DNA of 29,282 bases, taken from a virus. The notes under the pieces are model-generated. The model was not told the origin of the DNA, did not search any database, and saw nothing but the letters and a program-made list of their open reading frames with translations. The stretch covers positions 1 to 29,282 of IMG/VR virus record IMGVR_UViG_3300040806_000419, one strand, 5' to 3'. The translations under genes and the position numbers were made by a program. Shown here in pieces: positions 9,830 to 28,942 of this stretch; within the stretch, counting starts at the first letter, position 1; every line of letters starts with the position of its first letter.

Positions 9830-10001
9830 CTCGTCCCCCTCCCCAGAGGTCTTGGTTGATCAGTTCTTTCTGTGGAAACGTCCTAGCCCGCGGGATGGGC
9901 GACTCGTACTGGGTCTTACTCTTATAGCTCGACACCGAGGGCTGCCGATACTGAAGGGTGAACCCCTTTGACAACATGAACTTAAGCTCTTCCGCGAGCA
10001 T
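9786..10001 (-). CDS. Small hypothetical protein overlapping the helicase 3' end
   Basis: 71 aa from the ATG at 10001 (MLAEELKFMLSKGFTLQYRQ), with TTAGGAG ending 5 nt before it. The same frame is open to 10172, but that part lies over helicase coding sequence and has an Arg/Ser-rich shadow composition. The true gene overlaps the helicase stop by 20 nt. Ordered N-terminal part, then a flexible Gly/Ala-rich tail (WGGGRDAELGAWGSQEASA). No family recognised. Confidence 0.5.
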   Translation of the reverse strand: MLAEELKFMLSKGFTLQYRQPSVSSYKSKTQYESPIPRARTFPQKELINQDLWGGGRDAELGAWGSQEASA

Positions 10002-11442
10002 AACGGCTCCTAATTTGCTGGTGTTGAATGAAGCCCATGACCTCGGGCGAGATGTCGTTTGCCCGGATGGGCGTGATGCGGTCAGGCCAGCAGCCAAACT
10101 TTTGACGGTAGAGGTGAGAGGCCCAGCCCGACTTGTACCCCTGATACTTGCCATAGAGCGCGAGCTGCCCATACCAGTCGCCGCGGCTTAGCTGAACCCG
10201 CTTCTTGCGCTCGAGGCGCTTCAGCTCAGAGCCATCGGTTTCCAGGCGCTCCTTGATTGGATGAGTGTAGCCGCAGGCACACCTCATGCCTGTGAACTTG
10301 CCGTGGCACTGGGGGCAATCGTGGACCTTCTTCTCCTTCTTCTCCTTTACCTGGTTCTTCTCAGAGAAGCCCTTCTCCTTCCTGTCCAGAGACTCGGGCT
10401 CGATGTCTTCCGCGAATCCATGCCGTGCCACATTCCCGGCGTGGTCCAGATAGATCGCGTCCTCTTTGCCTTCAGCCGTCCGCATGATCCGCCCTGCCCG
10501 CTGGACATAAGCGATGATCGAGCGGGTGGGGAAGCAGTCAATGAGGCATGACACCTTCGGTGCGTCGTAGCCGACATTGAGCAGCCTCGAGCAGGAGAGG
10601 ATCAGGAACTCGCCCTCATCGTGGGCGCGGTAAATGACCTGCCTTTCCTCGTCATCCATGTAGCCGTCGATGTGGACCGCAGGGATGCCTGCCTCGTTGA
10701 ACTTGTCCACCATGTCGCGGCTGTGCTTGATCGAGGGTGAGAAGGCGATGGTCTGGCGCCCGTTGGCGTGCTTCAGCCAGTTCTGGATGATGTCCCCCAC
10801 AAGGGTCTGATCGTCTTCCGTGGCCTTGCCTAACGCCAGAGGATCGTAATCGGACCCACCCGTCCGCAGGTTGCGGCTCTTGATCTTGGAGACATCGACC
10901 GAGGCCCCACCGAAGTATTTCACGGGGGTCAGGAAGCCTCCGTCTAAAAGCTCCGTGGGCGTGATCGGGCACACAAGATCGTTATAGGCCAGGCCCAATC
11001 CCTTTGAGTATGGGGTAGCCGTCAGTCCGATGAAGGGAACTGCTGTATACCGATCCATCATGTACTGCGTTGCCTTGTAGTGGACGTGGGCTTCATCGAC
11101 TATCGCGAAGTCAAACTCGGGCAGGTGCTTCCGTCGGGCGATGGTCTGGATCGAGGCGATCTGAATCGGAGCCCGGTAGTTGGTTCTTTCATGCGAGCCC
11201 TGCATTACCCCGACATTTAGGCCTTCCGCGTCAAAGGCGTCCAGAGCCTGCTGAACCAGCTTGATCCGATCACAGATGAAGATGCCGCGCTTGCCCTTCT
11301 TGGCTGCCTCAGATAGCAGGTATGCCGCTGTGATCGTCTTACCGAATGAACATGGCGCCGCAAGGATCGGGCGCGTCTTTCCCCTTCTCAGAGAGTCGCG
11401 GAGCATCTCCACGGCCTTCTCCTGATGTGGTCTTAACTGCAT
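9982..11442 (-). CDS. Superfamily 2 DEAH-box DNA helicase
   Basis: 486 aa, predicted ATP-driven DNA or nucleoprotein remodelling enzyme used in phage replication or recombination. Motifs: Q-like LRPHQEKAV at the N-terminus; motif I APCSFGKT (29-36); motif II VDEAH (115-119); motif III GLTATPYSKG (139-148); HIDGYMDDEER and RLLNVGYDAPKV in the second RecA domain; motif VI QRAGRIMR (314-321). A four-cysteine ribbon follows (CPQCHGKFTGMRCACGY, ~376-392), then a basic tail with aromatics (WYGQLALYGKYQGYKSGWAS). This layout fits the phage RadD/UvsW-like SF2 group. The motif I variant Cys-Ser-Phe instead of Thr-Gly-Ser/Ala is seen in that group. Start is the ATG at 11442 after GAGGAGGA. It is the first gene of the leftward operon and diverges from the recombination operon. 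Confidence 0.9.
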   Translation of the reverse strand: MQLRPHQEKAVEMLRDSLRRGKTRPILAAPCSFGKTITAAYLLSEAAKKGKRGIFICDRIKLVQQALDAFDAEGLNVGVMQGSHERTNYRAPIQIASIQTIARRKHLPEFDFAIVDEAHVHYKATQYMMDRYTAVPFIGLTATPYSKGLGLAYNDLVCPITPTELLDGGFLTPVKYFGGASVDVSKIKSRNLRTGGSDYDPLALGKATEDDQTLVGDIIQNWLKHANGRQTIAFSPSIKHSRDMVDKFNEAGIPAVHIDGYMDDEERQVIYRAHDEGEFLILSCSRLLNVGYDAPKVSCLIDCFPTRSIIAYVQRAGRIMRTAEGKEDAIYLDHAGNVARHGFAEDIEPESLDRKEKGFSEKNQVKEKKEKKVHDCPQCHGKFTGMRCACGYTHPIKERLETDGSELKRLERKKRVQLSRGDWYGQLALYGKYQGYKSGWASHLYRQKFGCWPDRITPIRANDISPEVMGFIQHQQIRSRYARGRA

Positions 11443-11578
11443 TGTTCCTCCTCAAACACGAATGCCTGGACCTTTAATGGTAGGGGAGCGTTGGAAGGAG
11501 GAGAAAGAATATTTAGTTATAAGGGGGAAAGTTCCCTATTCCCCTTCTAAGGGAACGGGAACGGGAACATGAAAAGAG
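11443..11578. promoter_or_regulatory. Divergent control stretch between helicase gene and candidate RNA
   Basis: Non-coding. It holds the helicase ribosome site (GAGGAGGA next to 11443) and the only AT-rich island of the region, AAAGAATATTTAGTTATAAG (about 11504-11523). That island offers -10-like hexamers in both directions: TATAAG on plus, TATAAC and TAAATA on minus. I could not find a convincing -35 partner at 16-18 nt on either strand, so promoter positions are only suggested. It is followed by an inverted and tandem repeat block at 11531-11568. Confidence 0.35.
11531..11568. repeat. GTTCCC/GGGAAC inverted repeat plus three tandem GGGAAC hexamers
   Basis: GTTCCC at 11531-11536 faces GGGAAC at 11551-11556 across a 14-nt spacer. 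GGGAAC then recurs head-to-tail at 11557-11562 and 11563-11568, giving three exact tandem copies. This could be a protein-binding array (operator or replication-associated site) or the foot of the structured transcript that follows. No T-run accompanies it, so it is not an obvious terminator. Confidence 0.6.
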
Positions 11579-11636
11579 GGGCCGGTCGCTGGGAAGCGCA
11601 AAGGGTGCAAGGGGAGTGAGGAGACGCCCACCCGGC

Positions 11637-11975
11637 CAAATCGTTGCAAACCCCACAAGAGAGGAGTAGGGTTTTACGCGTCGGTGGGGTTACCAGCCCC
11701 TAAAGATCCGACGGAGAACAGGTGGAATCGTTCACCCGACGCAGGTCCATCATAGCGTCCACAAGTGTCCGAAGCAATCCTCGACCGTCCATTCTTTAGA
11801 TGCTGCTACCCATATCTTGTGCCGACTGGGTCTGCTCCCCACAAGATGTGCTGTCGCATGGCGCAGCCAGCAGCAAAGCCAGATGTTAGGCCAGGACCTT
11901 TGAGAGCGGGACAAACAGCGTCAGGTGCCACGGAAACGTGGGGGGTGGTGTTGCGAGCCACAGGCAAATCGTTGC
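11637..11975 (+). repeat. Pair of exact 11-bp direct repeats in the intergenic RNA region
   Basis: CAAATCGTTGC occurs at 11637-11647 and again at 11965-11975. In the second copy the sequence forms a small GCAA/TTGC hairpin; in the first copy the preceding base differs (C instead of G), which weakens the same fold. The repeats could be duplicated protein-binding sites, duplicated RNA elements or chance, since an 11-mer repeat in ~650 nt is uncommon but not impossible. Confidence 0.5.
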
Positions 11976-12059
11976 TGATTACGCTGGCCTAACGGGAAAT
12001 GGGTTTGTCATGGGGGCACCAACAGCTCTCAAAAGACCACTGCACCCTGAAGAAAATAT

Positions 12060-12080
12060 GGCAAACATTTTTGCCTTTTT
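12060..12080 (+). terminator. Intrinsic terminator at the 3' end of the candidate RNA
   Basis: GGCAAA (12060-12065), loop CATT, TTTGCC (12070-12075), then TTTTT (12076-12080). The six-base-pair stem with a run of five T has the correct polarity for plus-strand transcription. It lies 60 nt before the first gene of the recombination operon and just upstream of a separate promoter candidate. It therefore ends an upstream transcript rather than the operon mRNA, unless it acts as an attenuator. Confidence 0.7.
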
Positions 12081-12083
12081 GTG

Positions 12084-12112
12084 TTGCACGAGAGAAACGA
12101 TAGCAGTATTCT
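12084..12112 (+). promoter_or_regulatory. Candidate promoter of the recombination operon
   Basis: TTGCAC (12084-12089), a 17-nt spacer, then TATTCT (12107-12112). It matches sigma70 consensus at 3 of 6 and 4 of 6 positions, with ideal spacing. It directly follows the terminator and precedes the operon start codon by 28 nt, with the GAGGAG ribosome site between them. The same TTGCA-type -35 appears in the scaffold promoter candidate. Call rests on motif and position only. Confidence 0.45.
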
Positions 12113-12140
12113 GTTGCTGGGATTGATGAGGAGACACACA

Positions 12141-12707
12141 ATGCAAACACTCCCGAAGCACATCTGGGACACCCTGTCCCGTATTGACGTCTCTGAGCAC
12201 GTTGAGACGAAGCAAGGCTTAACCTATTTGTCCTGGGCTTGGGCCTGGGGCGTGATGTCTGAGCACTTCCCCGACACCACCTACACGTTCACCAGCGAGA
12301 CGTTCCCGGACGAGACCGTTGAATACACCTGCTTCGTCACGGTGAAGCACTGCGGCCAAGTCCACACCCAGATGATGTGGCTGCCTGCAATGGATCACCG
12401 CAACAAGGCTGTGAAGAACCCGGACGCCTTCGTCCGCAACTCCTGCAAGATGCGCTGCCTCGTCAAGTGCCTCGCCATGATGGGCCTTGGCCACTACATC
12501 TATGCCGGAGAGGACCTTCCCCAGGGGCAGGCTCCCGAAGCGATCAACGAGCATGAGCGCGAATTGATCGACCGCATGATCGAAGAGACCGGCGTGGACG
12601 TTGTCAAGTTCTGCAAGGCTTATGGCATCTCAAAGACTGCTGACCTCCCTAAGGCCGCGTTCGATAAGGCTCTGGCTCAGCTTGAGAAGAAGATGGAGAG
12701 CAAATGA
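12141..12707 (+). CDS. Single-strand annealing protein, DUF1071/Sak3 family
   Basis: 188 aa from the ATG at 12141, after AGGAGA with about 7 nt spacing; the frame is open from 12081 but the upstream part overlaps the terminator and leader. It binds single-stranded DNA and anneals complementary strands, the recombinase of lambda-Red-like systems, within the Rad52-like superfamily. Key segments are GLTYLSWAWAWGVMSEHFPD (residues 26-45), TQMMWLPAMDHRNKAVKNPD (76-95), VRNSCKMRCLVKCLAMMGLG (98-117) and YIYAGEDLP (119-127). These are the conserved boxes of DUF1071 (PF06378). The C-terminal ~50 residues look like a linker plus helical tail. It is first in the operon with the YqaJ exonuclease and SSB, its expected partners. 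Confidence 0.88.
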   Translation: MQTLPKHIWDTLSRIDVSEHVETKQGLTYLSWAWAWGVMSEHFPDTTYTFTSETFPDETVEYTCFVTVKHCGQVHTQMMWLPAMDHRNKAVKNPDAFVRNSCKMRCLVKCLAMMGLGHYIYAGEDLPQGQAPEAINEHERELIDRMIEETGVDVVKFCKAYGISKTADLPKAAFDKALAQLEKKMESK

Positions 12708-25482: not shown

Positions 25483-26550
25483 CTAGGAGAAGGTAACGGT
25501 GTCAGATGCACCGGCTGCGGTGATTGTGTAAACGGTATCTGTTCCGACCGTGGCAGAGGTTTGGGTCACGCCAGCGCTGAAGGTTGCGGAGTAGCCTTGG
25601 GGCACTTTCAAAATGATGACTCCAGAGCCGCCTGCATACCCGGGCTGGCTGTTTGAGTCTGTTCCGCCAGACCCACCGCCTCCTCCAGTGTTTGCTGCCC
25701 CCGGCGTACCGTCTCGGCGCGTCGCGCTATTGTTACAAGAGGTGGCGTCTCCGCCGTTACCTCCACCGCCAAGACCGCCAAGACCTCGCGAGCCGTTGTT
25801 GCGGAATCCGTCACCGCCGCCACCACCGCCCCCTGCGCGATAGGTCGCTACGCCAGTAATGGAAGATTGGACCCCATCGCCGCCATCGCCTGCCTTGGTG
25901 CTTGTTGAAGACTGGCCGACCCCGCCAGCCCCACCACCACCACCGCCGTTGTATCCATTGCCACTGCAACCCGACCCTGAACCGTTCCGGCCCGATCCGC
26001 CCGCATACCCCTGCCCAGCCGTACCGCTTCCCCCGGGGTTTGCTCTACCGCCGCCACCACCTGACCCGCCCAAGCCTCCGGCCCCACCTTGTTGGCCAAG
26101 ACCGCCGCCGATGCTGGTTATGGTGGAAAAAGTCGAGTCATTGCCGTTCGTCCCTGACCCTGCTCCAGGGATTCCACCAGAACCTCCAGAGCCTACCGTG
26201 ACGCTGTATGCCGTAGCCACTGACAAAGACAGTGGCGTTTCGGCGCTTGCTCCTCCGCCAGATGACTCGCCAGACACGGAAGACCGATAACCGCCTGCAC
26301 CACCGCCGCCTTCGTGTGATAACGCACCGCCTCCGCCACCAGCGATCACAAGAAACTCTACTGTCAAAGCTCCTCTCGGCGCGCTTAAACCGGCCCAGTA
26401 TGCCCCCGTATACCCTTCGTAGATTTCTTCTGTGGTGTTGTATCTCACAGCACCTTGAGCCGCAGACGCAGGCCGCTCTGCCGTCGTCCCAGCCGGGAGG
26501 ATCAGGCTGCTCGTAGCGATGATGCTGGCAATGTCGCGTGCTCGGCTCAT
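25483..26550 (-). CDS. Gly-rich tail/adhesin protein, paralogue 3
   Basis: 355 aa. N-terminal MSRARDIASIIATSSLILPA then the module GTTAERPASAAQGAVRYNTT...EIYEGYTGAYW, which recurs in the next two genes. FLVIAGGGGGALSHEGGGGA opens ~230 residues of Gly-rich sequence (GGGGRANPGGSGTAGQGYAG and similar). The C-terminal module VIILKVPQGYSATFSAGVTQ, then TSATVGTDTVYTITAAGASD, ends in TVTFS. Glycine-rich domains of this kind form polyglycine-II helix bundles in T-even gp38-type adhesins. The N- and C-terminal modules are shared with the two upstream genes, but the Gly-rich loops differ, as expected for receptor-contact sites. Overlaps its upstream neighbour by 4 nt (ATGA). Confidence 0.8.
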   Translation of the reverse strand: MSRARDIASIIATSSLILPAGTTAERPASAAQGAVRYNTTEEIYEGYTGAYWAGLSAPRGALTVEFLVIAGGGGGALSHEGGGGAGGYRSSVSGESSGGGASAETPLSLSVATAYSVTVGSGGSGGIPGAGSGTNGNDSTFSTITSIGGGLGQQGGAGGLGGSGGGGGRANPGGSGTAGQGYAGGSGRNGSGSGCSGNGYNGGGGGGAGGVGQSSTSTKAGDGGDGVQSSITGVATYRAGGGGGGGDGFRNNGSRGLGGLGGGGNGGDATSCNNSATRRDGTPGAANTGGGGGSGGTDSNSQPGYAGGSGVIILKVPQGYSATFSAGVTQTSATVGTDTVYTITAAGASDTVTFS

Positions 26551-27863
26551 GAGAAAGTCACCGTGTCAGATGCGCCTGCGGCGGTGATGGTGTAGATCGT
26601 ATCCGTGCCGACCGTGGTGGATGTTTGGGAGACGCCTGCGGAGAAAGATGCTGTGACTCCTGCGGGAACTTTGAGGATGACGACCCCAGAACCACCTGCT
26701 GAGCCAGACGCCGCCTCTACTTCGCCACCGCCACCACCGCCACCAGTGTTTGCCGCCCCAGCCGTGCCTAGTCCGTTGTCTGTGAGCGCTCCATCACCTG
26801 CACCACCCTTTTGAGCAGTGACGGACGTGCCGCCACCGAGCCCTCCACCGGATGCTGCCGTGGTATTTGTGTTGCAACCTCCACCGCCGCCACCTGCGTA
26901 ATAAATCGAGGAGCCGGTGATCGTGGAGGCCTTTGCTAATCCTCCATTCCCGCCTTGTCCTATGACGCCGGTTTGCGTTGTCGCGGTCTGCCCAGCTCCG
27001 CCAGCTCCGCCGCCTCCACCACCTGCGCCGTATGCAGTGCGGTCAGAGGCAGCACCATCAAACCCTTGGGCTGGGGTGGTAGCCGGAGTGTTTCCTAAAC
27101 CCTGGCCAGTGGTGACATCAGACCCAGTGCCGCCACCCGATCCACCATTTCCGCCAGCATCGACGTGGCCGCCACCCTTCCCTCCTCCAGCGCTTATGAT
27201 GGTGTCGAATGTTGATGCCCCGCCAGCCGTCGCCGTATTTGCGCTAATGTTAGGCCCATTTGCTGCGCCGCCAGAGCCAACGGTGACGGCATACGCAGTC
27301 GAAAAAGCGAGCGAGGATGTTCCCTCTCTAAATCCGCCAGCTCCGCCACCGCCTACGCCACTTCCACCACCACCAGCGATGACAAGATACTCAACTTGAA
27401 GTGTCGCATCGCTTAAAAACACCCATCCCGTCCCATCATAGCCTTCGTATGCGCTCGCGCTGGTGTTGAACCTCAAGCTCCCCGCCGAAGGCGAAGCGGG
27501 CCTCTGTGCCGTCGTGCCCCGCGGCACGATCAGCTCGCCGTTGAAGATGACGGGGCCGGTAAAAGTTCCTCCTGTGGGAGGGACAGCAGAGGCAATGCTA
27601 TAGACGTCGTAGACGACGATCTCAACAATATCGCCGGGGGATAGGGCAGCGAGGGATGAGATCGTGTTTGTGGTCGTAGTGTTGTAGTCAGTACCGGCGA
27701 CAAGGATCACGCCGTTTAGGGCCACATCGACATAGGTGCCATCGCTGAAGACCAGGGTGTTGCCGGAGTCATCCACCCCAGACAGGGAAGTCTCCCCGCC
27801 TGACGCGGTGAAGTAGTAACGATTCCGAACCCCTACGCCTGGAGCTTTACCTATGTACGACAT
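26547..27863 (-). CDS. Gly-rich tail/adhesin protein, paralogue 2 with extra N-terminal domain
   Basis: 438 aa. Starts MSYIGKAPGVGVRNRYYFTA, followed by an extra ~95-residue fibre domain: GETSLSGVDDSGNTLVFSDG, YVDVALNGVILVAGTDYNTT and LSPGDIVEIVVYDVYSIASA. I recall this domain from aquatic-phage tail fibres. Then GGTFTGPVIFNGELIVPRGT leads into TAQRPASPSAGSLRFNTSAS (shared module), the VEYLVIAGGGG entry, a Gly-rich region, and the C-terminal VILKVPAGVTASFSAGVSQT...TVTFS module. Middle gene of the three. TGATG junction with the upstream gene and ATGA with the downstream gene. Confidence 0.8.
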   Translation of the reverse strand: MSYIGKAPGVGVRNRYYFTASGGETSLSGVDDSGNTLVFSDGTYVDVALNGVILVAGTDYNTTTTNTISSLAALSPGDIVEIVVYDVYSIASAVPPTGGTFTGPVIFNGELIVPRGTTAQRPASPSAGSLRFNTSASAYEGYDGTGWVFLSDATLQVEYLVIAGGGGSGVGGGGAGGFREGTSSLAFSTAYAVTVGSGGAANGPNISANTATAGGASTFDTIISAGGGKGGGHVDAGGNGGSGGGTGSDVTTGQGLGNTPATTPAQGFDGAASDRTAYGAGGGGGGAGGAGQTATTQTGVIGQGGNGGLAKASTITGSSIYYAGGGGGGCNTNTTAASGGGLGGGTSVTAQKGGAGDGALTDNGLGTAGAANTGGGGGGGEVEAASGSAGGSGVVILKVPAGVTASFSAGVSQTSTTVGTDTIYTITAAGASDTVTFS

Positions 27864-28942
27864 CAGGCCACCCCAAAGGTCACGGTGTCACTCGCACCAG
27901 CAGCCGTTACAGTGTAAACGGTATCAGACCCAACCGTGGAGGAGGTTTGCGTCACACCTGCGGAGAATGTTGCGGAGTATGTTGAGGGGATGCGGATGAT
28001 TACGACGCCAGAGCCTCCGGAAGCACCTCGCGCAGGGTCAGCGCCGTCAACATTTCTTACGCCACCGCCTCCACCGCCTCCCAAATTTGCCGTTCCTGCC
28101 GTGGCGTTGCCGGTTGGATTCGTATAGTACCCATTGTAACCGCCACCAGCGCCCCCTCCGCCTGCTCCTCCAACCCCGACAGTCCCATAGATGCCAGTGC
28201 CATACCCAAGTCCGCCACCTCCGCCACCCCCAGCATAAAAAACGCTAGCCCCCGTGATGGAGGAGGAAAGACCGTCGCCACCGTTCCCCGAAGCGTAATT
28301 GCCGCCATTCAGGCTGCCCGGATCACCTGCTGCACCAGCACCTCCGCCGCCACCAGAGCCTTGTTCTCCGCTCCCTGCGCTACCACCGCTATTTCCTTGC
28401 CCTGCGATCCCTGCACCGCCTGAGAGGATTCGGTAACCGGAGCCGCCACCTGAACCACCAGCAGAGCCAATCCCCGCCCCAGTGCCGCCACCACCACCAC
28501 CTGACGAGACGATAGTGCTAAAGGCGGAAGAAGCGCCGTTTGAGCCGCCGCCATTGTTTCCGCCAGCAGAGCCTCCGGCGCCAACGGTCAGCGTGTAGGC
28601 GACAGAAAGGGCAAAGTCTTGCGTGCTGGCCAACATCCCGCCAGCGCCACCTCCGCCGCCACCGGTGTAGCCCCCCGTGTTGGAATAACCACCACCGCCA
28701 CCACCGCCAGCCACCACAAGATATTGGGCGGAAACGCTGGGCGCATCGCTCAGAAACGCCCACTGGAGTCCGTTGTAGCCCTCATAGCGTTGCTCGGTTG
28801 TGTTAAATCGAACACTCCCCGTCGCAGGAGAAGCAGGGCGCTCTGCGGTGGTCCCAGCAGGCAGCACCATGCGGTTATTTACCGTCAGATCATCAACGGT
28901 TGGAGAGATAGGGATCGCTGGCGGCTGGCCAATGTAGCTCAT
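27863..28942 (-). CDS. Gly-rich tail/adhesin protein, paralogue 1
   Basis: 359 aa. MSYIGQPPAIPISPTVDDLT, then VLPAGTTAERPASPATGSVR and FNTTEQRYEGYNGLQWAFLS (shared module). AQYLVVAGGGGGGGYSNTGG opens a Gly-rich region (many GGGG runs with Tyr/Asn/Ser between), then VVIIRIPSTYSATFSAGVTQ, TSSTVGSDTVYTVTAAGASD and TVTFGVA. Like its two downstream relatives it probably decorates a tail fibre tip or appendage and contacts the host surface. The first five residues MSYIG are the same as in the middle paralogue, suggesting a shared attachment end. One-base overlap with the partial gene upstream. Confidence 0.8.
   Translation of the reverse strand: MSYIGQPPAIPISPTVDDLTVNNRMVLPAGTTAERPASPATGSVRFNTTEQRYEGYNGLQWAFLSDAPSVSAQYLVVAGGGGGGGYSNTGGYTGGGGGGAGGMLASTQDFALSVAYTLTVGAGGSAGGNNGGGSNGASSAFSTIVSSGGGGGGTGAGIGSAGGSGGGSGYRILSGGAGIAGQGNSGGSAGSGEQGSGGGGGAGAAGDPGSLNGGNYASGNGGDGLSSSITGASVFYAGGGGGGGLGYGTGIYGTVGVGGAGGGGAGGGYNGYYTNPTGNATAGTANLGGGGGGGVRNVDGADPARGASGGSGVVIIRIPSTYSATFSAGVTQTSSTVGSDTVYTVTAAGASDTVTFGVA

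Follow-up and report, generated by a model that had tools for sequence, protein, structure and literature searches.

Evidence for a new class of large, pseudoknotted phage RNA preceding replication and recombination genes

Few RNAs, to our knowledge, combine such a size with such strict folding, and nearly all of those that are understood serve as catalysts, scaffolds or precise regulators. Structured leader RNAs of marine phages, such as manA, wcaG and similar elements, were discovered by comparative genomics, are contained in Rfam and precede particular types of genes. ROOL and GOLLD are large, ornate RNAs of phages and prophages whose function is unknown; ROOL possesses multiple pseudoknots, and GOLLD is composed of a conserved 3' region and a less conserved 5' region, with many members exceeding 800 nt (PMC12286853). 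The put RNA of phage HK022 modifies RNA polymerase and is located at the start of the early transcript before the early genes (PMC9378689). That phages carry large structured RNAs is already known (GOLLD, ROOL), and the novelty of the RNA reported here, designated type A, lies in the RNA class.

The stretch of DNA analysed, referred to as the window, is the 29,282-b virus record IMGVR_UViG_3300040806_000419. It encodes a P22-like portal protein, terminase and scaffold as well as a recombination/replication cluster (Sak, YqaJ, SSB, NinB, exonuclease, NinG, helicase). The helicase heads an operon on the minus strand (start 11442) and the Sak annealing protein an operon on the plus strand (start 12141), in which it is followed by YqaJ, SSB, NinB, exonuclease and NinG. 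For the gap of 698 b between the two operons (11443-12140), a first-pass annotation had noted the absence of a good gene, and it indeed contains no conserved open frame. No reading frame is open across 19 members of the class, and in the ORF at 11765-11992 substitutions are distributed evenly over the codon positions (144/130/140) and frame-breaking indels occur, by which a protein gene is ruled out. A scan of the 29-kb window revealed no tRNA or tmRNA genes. Elsewhere in the window, three tandem paralogous genes on the minus strand (25483-28942; 355, 438 and 359 aa) all match phrog_2295, a family without an assigned function.

Homologues were collected from viral contigs that carry a related helicase or Sak protein and subsequently by iterated profile search, which aligns the window gap to close relatives and to many distant phages; within the window lineage, copies of the RNA are about 77-84% identical. 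Its 5' end was placed from the promoter and helix P1 and its 3' boundary from the end of conservation (ACUAU/ACUGC tail), the size ranging from about 370 to 450 nt. The class comprises 92 viral loci; since several of these are overlapping fragments of a single contig, its size is better expressed by the distinct core sequences, of which there are at least 51. The element always occurs as a single copy per contig. A motif scan that is independent of the neighbouring genes (CGGGANAAACAGCGT-N2-4-GGT) yielded 53 stretches, 52 of which contain the element, the match in L140 being discarded as a chance match. Later scans contributed few extra loci, and patterns built to extend type A and type B, a second RNA treated below, gave nothing new. 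Among 84,980 bacterial and archaeal genomes, a single contig (L144) was found; it is filed in an Anaerolineales bin, and its element is flanked by phage-like genes (NinG, a DNA methyltransferase and a phage-type transcriptional regulator). Searches of cultivated phages by blastn with four divergent members and two members with other cores, and searches of plasmids, gave no real homologue, and the covariance model found the element absent from isolate phages with relatives of the helicase.

Table 1 Features of the type-A RNA and its surroundings in the window; z values are those of the strand-swap test
Feature	Position	Strand	Evidence or remarks
DEAD/DEAH-type phage DNA helicase, divergent neighbour	9982..11442	-	Pfam ResIII/Helicase_C, phrog_16
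Predicted RNA promoter: -35-like TTGCAA (11644-49), 17-nt spacer, -10-like TAGGGT (11667-72)	11644..11672	+	
Structured RNA, about 369 nt	11678..12046	+	Profile and covariance searches; non-coding
5' domain	11678..11742	+	Compensated P1 versions and many L1 stems
Helix P1 (GCGTCGG/CCGACGC), encloses L1	11678-84/11736-42	+	Compensated versions
Hairpin L1, 7-nt loop	11686-89/11697-11700	+	Many stem versions
Variable arm, 11-bp stem and apical hairpin (11828-30/11837-39)	11811..11850	+	Kept in close relatives
Helix H1	11850-54/11863-67	+	98% of cells paired; double changes in 5 of 5 pairs; z 5.8
Pseudoknot PK1, H1 loop with AAAGC(C/G/A)AGA	11859-62/11878-81	+	96% paired; z 5.3
Long-range helix PC, pseudoknotted with PD and PE	11885-94/11984-93	+	34 distinct strand pairs; z 14.7
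Long-range helix PD	11899-907/12025-33	+	96% paired; double changes in 6 of 9 pairs; z 6.7
Near-invariant motif GGGACAAACAGCGU, between PD and PE	11908..11921	+	Alignment A1
Helix PF (CAGCG/UGCUG), crosses PE	11916-20/11973-77	+	100% paired
Long-range helix PE	11924-29/12015-20	+	100% paired; double changes in 4 of 6 pairs; z 9.4
Hairpin H6, loop GUUGCGA	11945-49/11957-61	+	z 3.7
PK2, H6 loop bases with downstream strand	11954-56/11969-71	+	z 2.0 (weak); two pairs significant in the predicted-pair test
Near-invariant motif UUGCUGAUKAC	11972..11982	+	Alignments A1 and A2
Terminator-like hairpin GGCAAA-CATT-TTTGCC, then TTTTT	12060..12080	+	2 observed over both strands versus 1.0 ± 1.6 expected
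Sak-type single-strand annealing protein, downstream neighbour	12141..12707	+	Pfam SSAP_Sak 5e-43, PHROGs

The predicted fold (Table 1) is composed of a 5' domain (P1/L1), a variable arm, an H-type pseudoknot formed by H1 and its loop (PK1), and a core in which the strands follow each other in the order PC5' PD5' PF5' PE5' H6 PF3' PC3' PE3' PD3'. PC and PF are mutually nested, as are PD and PE, and the two sets interleave, which makes the core pseudoknotted. Helix PF, which was added by RNAalifold, links both invariant motifs; it has a single compensatory change (CGGCG/UGCCG in L009), is invariant elsewhere and hence is weakly tested. The predicted core holds the two invariant strands, GGGACAAACAGCGU and UUGCUGAUKAC, together, and such near-invariant internal strands would suit a binding or active site better than a simple switch. 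H6 and PK2 are supported by eye in L096, L098, L101, L130 and L144. A further helix, H7 (strand-swap z 4.5), is absent from the window lineage, and a candidate helix P8, in which 12021-26 would pair with the ACUAU tail, was not accepted: it suits many lineages, yet fails in the CCUACG group (z 1.8).

Covariation was assessed in several ways, among them a strand-swap test in which each 5' strand is scored with its own 3' strand versus the 3' strands of the other sequences. The perfect 10-bp stem on which the first-pass annotation had drawn, here PC, is present and covaries strongly: its distinct versions fit their own partner, with a score of 20.1 versus 10.6 for the strands of others. Two helices that cross this stem, PD and PE, had been missed. 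In alignment A1, 82.7% of the pairs are standard versus 67.6 ± 0.6% after shuffling and at most 47% with the partners slid, and in the model-built alignment A2, to which PF was added, the 47-pair model reaches 86.2% versus 72.2% in shuffles, with double changes in 33 of the 47 pairs and a covariation score of 0.343 versus 0.119; the contigs are fragments of related metagenomes and the sequences are not independent, so these shuffles overstate significance. Guards against this are the controls by strand swapping, sliding and the tree-based null, together with the number of distinct helices. The covariance model does not include pseudoknots; the pseudoknot helices alone, which lie outside it, give a covariation score of 0.379 versus 0.129 ± 0.011. 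In an in-house, R-scape-like test against a tree-based null, 18-19 of the 41 predicted pairs are significant after Bonferroni correction, and in an all-against-all search every pair with E=0 is a predicted pair. The strongest covarying pair of the alignment is 11860-11880 in PK1 (E<0.001 versus the tree-based null). L144, which was held out of model building, scores 143 bits and on inspection contains new compensated versions of PC, PE, PD, H1, PK1 and PK2. The folding energy, which the earlier annotation had proposed to compare with dinucleotide shuffles, is no better than these (z -0.13 for 11579-12085, z -0.19 for 11678-12046), because the fold is pseudoknotted and thus beyond MFE modelling. 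Taken alone, this energy would speak against the finding; a shuffle-equal energy is, however, uninformative as a ground for rejecting a pseudoknotted RNA. The suggestion of a new structured phage RNA has thus been confirmed by a wide margin through the covarying stems of the homologues, including the held-out one, and we are all but certain that a real structured class is involved.

In the 5' domain, compensated P1 versions, written as DNA, include GTGCCGGA/TCCGGCAC, GTGTCGG/CCGACAC, GCGCGTG/CACGCGC and GTTCCGGA/TCCGGAAC. The P1 5' strand has two candidate partners, a middle strand CCGACG (11708-13) and the far strand (11736-42), and the far pairing is the better compensated (GUGCCGGA/UCCGGCAC, GCGCGUG/CACGCGC, GUUCCGGA/UCCGGAAC). 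In type-B RNAs, RNAalifold favours the near partner, and the alternative partners may represent a two-state switch common to these RNAs. The 11-bp hairpin noted earlier (11811-21/11840-50) exists in the window and persists in close relatives, whereas the variable arm that it forms is not shared by all lineages. Of the three-way junction formerly proposed at 11801-11875, the outer stem (11802-07/11869-74) occurs in close relatives only. The apical hairpin of the arm is compensated by eye (GGG/CCC, GGU/ACC, UAGUG/CACUA and others). The GNRA hairpin formerly placed at 11928-41 is not confirmed as drawn, its CC being taken by the better-supported long-range helix PE.

A sigma70-like -35/-10 pair ends 4-10 nt before P1 in 50 distinct sequences, for which the mean best promoter score is 8.36/12 versus 6.35 ± 0.14 in shuffles. 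The stronger promoters align as TTGACA, TTGACG or TTGATT, a spacer of mostly 17 nt, and TANNNT; the window copy, located 5 nt before P1, is weak (7/12). The RNA would accordingly possess its own sigma70-like promoter, which is well supported and speaks indirectly for a discrete transcript; as it lies just before P1, the transcript probably starts at 11678 and not at 11579, where the first-pass annotation had begun it. The terminator which that annotation had placed at 12060-12080 is not above chance and its stem is not conserved in the nearest relatives, and the separate promoter proposed before the next gene fails a consensus scan, so that both are weakly supported; on visual inspection, close relatives repeatedly show a TTGCA-17-ATAmT-like pair before this gene. 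Behind the RNA, a conserved terminator is lacking, the element in most phages abutting the ribosome-binding site (RBS) of the next gene, and no conserved pairing was found over this site. Strong terminators are located upstream of the RNA promoter in several phages; behind the RNA they are not enriched (126 kb of RNA-strand sequence contained 8, several at a distance of about 2.2 kb).

In every case, the RNA is co-directional with the replication/recombination genes that follow it. Its orientation relative to the helicase is of either kind, and in the window lineage the helicase is directed away from the RNA, which is nonetheless kept. The first downstream gene varies and may encode Sak (window lineage), the helicase (L103, L110, L134, L136, L138), a PDDEXK_14 nuclease (L041, L048, L096, L114), Mom (L051), an integrase arm-domain fragment (L036), a replication-initiator-like protein (L101) or, in other phages, small proteins without known function, the RNA being retained as its neighbours change. 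The space between RNA and helicase resembles a cargo slot in L036, L041, L048, L051, L096 and L114, with a PDDEXK_14 nuclease, a Mom-type DNA modification protein or the integrase fragment as contents. A family of proteins of about 150 aa (phrog_18407, without an assigned function) follows type-A RNAs at L089:2342-2785, L070:1091-1579 and elsewhere; these proteins look PD-(D/E)XK-like by eye, have no convincing Pfam match and no PDB match, and similar-looking proteins follow type-B RNAs.

Type B is a second structured RNA of about 400-460 nt, located at L058:4088-4532, L064:4139-4537 and nine more loci. It shares with type A the promoter, the P1/L1 5' domain and the place before the helicase, and its core is unrelated; RNAalifold predicts 93 pairs, 21 of them with double changes, and the core of L058 has no Rfam match. 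Candidates for further cores at L042:720-1200, L077:4225-4680 and L056 share with type A the 5' domain only, and L046 has a gene-free gap of different sequence upstream of the helicase; these four are possibly additional core types. A promoter and 5' RNA domain shared in one pre-replication slot, with unrelated large cores swapped behind them, could be imagined as a system of exchangeable RNA machines, possibly catalytic, that act in replication or host takeover, an idea which we consider speculative and rather unlikely.

As to function, the explanation that we prefer, with confidence evenly divided, is that of a new large phage RNA which is itself the trans-acting product. Transcription would proceed from the conserved sigma70-like promoter with its start at P1, and the position of the RNA suggests that it is made early, ahead of the replication and recombination genes. 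The folded RNA would then function as a trans-acting RNA or within an RNA-protein machine in phage DNA replication or takeover, and the genes behind it would be expressed by read-through. Action in trans is favoured because the next gene turns over, the RNA is kept despite reversal of the helicase, the RBS lies outside any conserved pairing, and the near-invariant internal strands look more like a binding or active site than like part of a switch; that the RNA acts mainly in this manner is nevertheless a tentative assignment, to which we give slightly less than even weight. Most elements lie flush with the RBS of the next gene and lack a conserved terminator, which is leader-like and speaks against a trans-acting product. 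That the RNA always points into replication genes and has no conserved terminator instead favours a cis-acting 5' leader of the replication/recombination operon mRNA, controlling elongation or translation and in one form put-like, which we regard as a serious contender of lower probability. In its favour are the RNA's own predicted promoter with a start at P1, the direction shared with the following operon even where the operon differs, and the position adjoining the next RBS. Strong terminators before the promoter in several phages would make RNA and operon one unit, and an effect on the whole operon would be compatible with a changing first gene. On the other hand, the type-A RNA greatly exceeds put RNA in size and intricacy, downstream terminators are not enriched, no conserved element is present at the RBS, and the first gene is unrelated across phages. 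The HK022 put RNA provides a phage precedent for a leader (PMC9378689).

The constant proximity to replication genes, the helicase with its primase-type zinc-ribbon protein and the initiator in L101 would also fit a structured pre-primer or origin-activating transcript which, like plasmid ColE1 RNA II, starts phage replication nearby. Near the element in the window, the GC skew and the AT skew both switch sign, and two alternative partners for the P1 5' strand would be expected of a switching pre-primer. The skew change, however, also tracks the switch of coding strand, and it is the RNA pairs and not a DNA site that are conserved, so we consider this role improbable. Slightly more improbable still is a mobile ribozyme-like element, catalytic or once-splicing, which travels with a nuclease gene in the manner of introns with homing nucleases. 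Directly behind the RNA there is often a PD-(D/E)XK gene or another gene of mobile type, and several different cores occupy one slot; against this, the RNA is located between complete genes and not within one, lacks a nuclease in many phages (L103, L110, L134, L136, L138), occurs once per contig, and matches no group I, group II or small-ribozyme model of Rfam. An ordinary non-coding spacer or decayed gene with stems formed by chance would agree with the shuffle-like folding energy and is refuted by covariation, which lies far above column shuffles, slid partners and the tree-based null, while the sequence is recovered in many contigs and the held-out L144 fits; we give this reading practically no credence. 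Whether trans-acting product or leader, the RNA occurs widely among uncultivated phages, is without known relatives and stands at the start of replication genes, and its position and novelty point to an undescribed RNA-based step in the replication of phage DNA or in gene control, for which the covariance model and the promoter yield direct, testable predictions.

Searches with the Rfam 15 covariance models, which include GOLLD, ROOL, OLE, group I and II introns, HDV, tmRNA, 6S and riboswitches, gave no match at gathering score in the window; the best lax match (E=1) is at chance level and outside the element. Eighteen loci with this or related elements gave only one match, a distant tRNA, and L051 gave nothing up to E=5. 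A literature search of open-access papers found no described RNA at such a locus. Judged from sequence comparison, the proposal that the type-A RNA represents a large, non-coding class of phage RNA not described before is well supported. A hammerhead ribozyme was considered, as some members read CUGAUGA...GAAA, and rejected: the window and many others read CUGAUUA and so lack the essential G, part of the motif is engaged in PF, and Rfam gives no match. A group I intron was rejected in view of the location between complete genes and the lack of an RF00028 match, and a guide RNA of the OMEGA/HEARO type because the neighbours are PDDEXK_14, Mom, helicase and others, not IscB/TnpB, and many copies have no nuclease behind them.

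Compared with manA and wcaG, the type-A RNA is likewise structured, of metagenomic phage origin and placed ahead of genes, but it has no Rfam match and the gene behind it varies. Put RNA is much smaller than the type-A element. Like put RNA, the type-A RNA is placed ahead of early genes at a predicted transcript start; unlike it, the type-A RNA measures about 370 nt, contains interleaved long-range helices and shows no enrichment of terminators behind it. No homology to GOLLD or ROOL had been claimed at the outset and none was found, either in sequence or by covariance model; the type-A RNA is shorter, at about 370-450 nt, and in the window is not near tRNA genes but heads replication genes. 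It resembles these two RNAs in being large, phage-encoded and without an assigned function, and it shares with ROOL the presence of pseudoknots.
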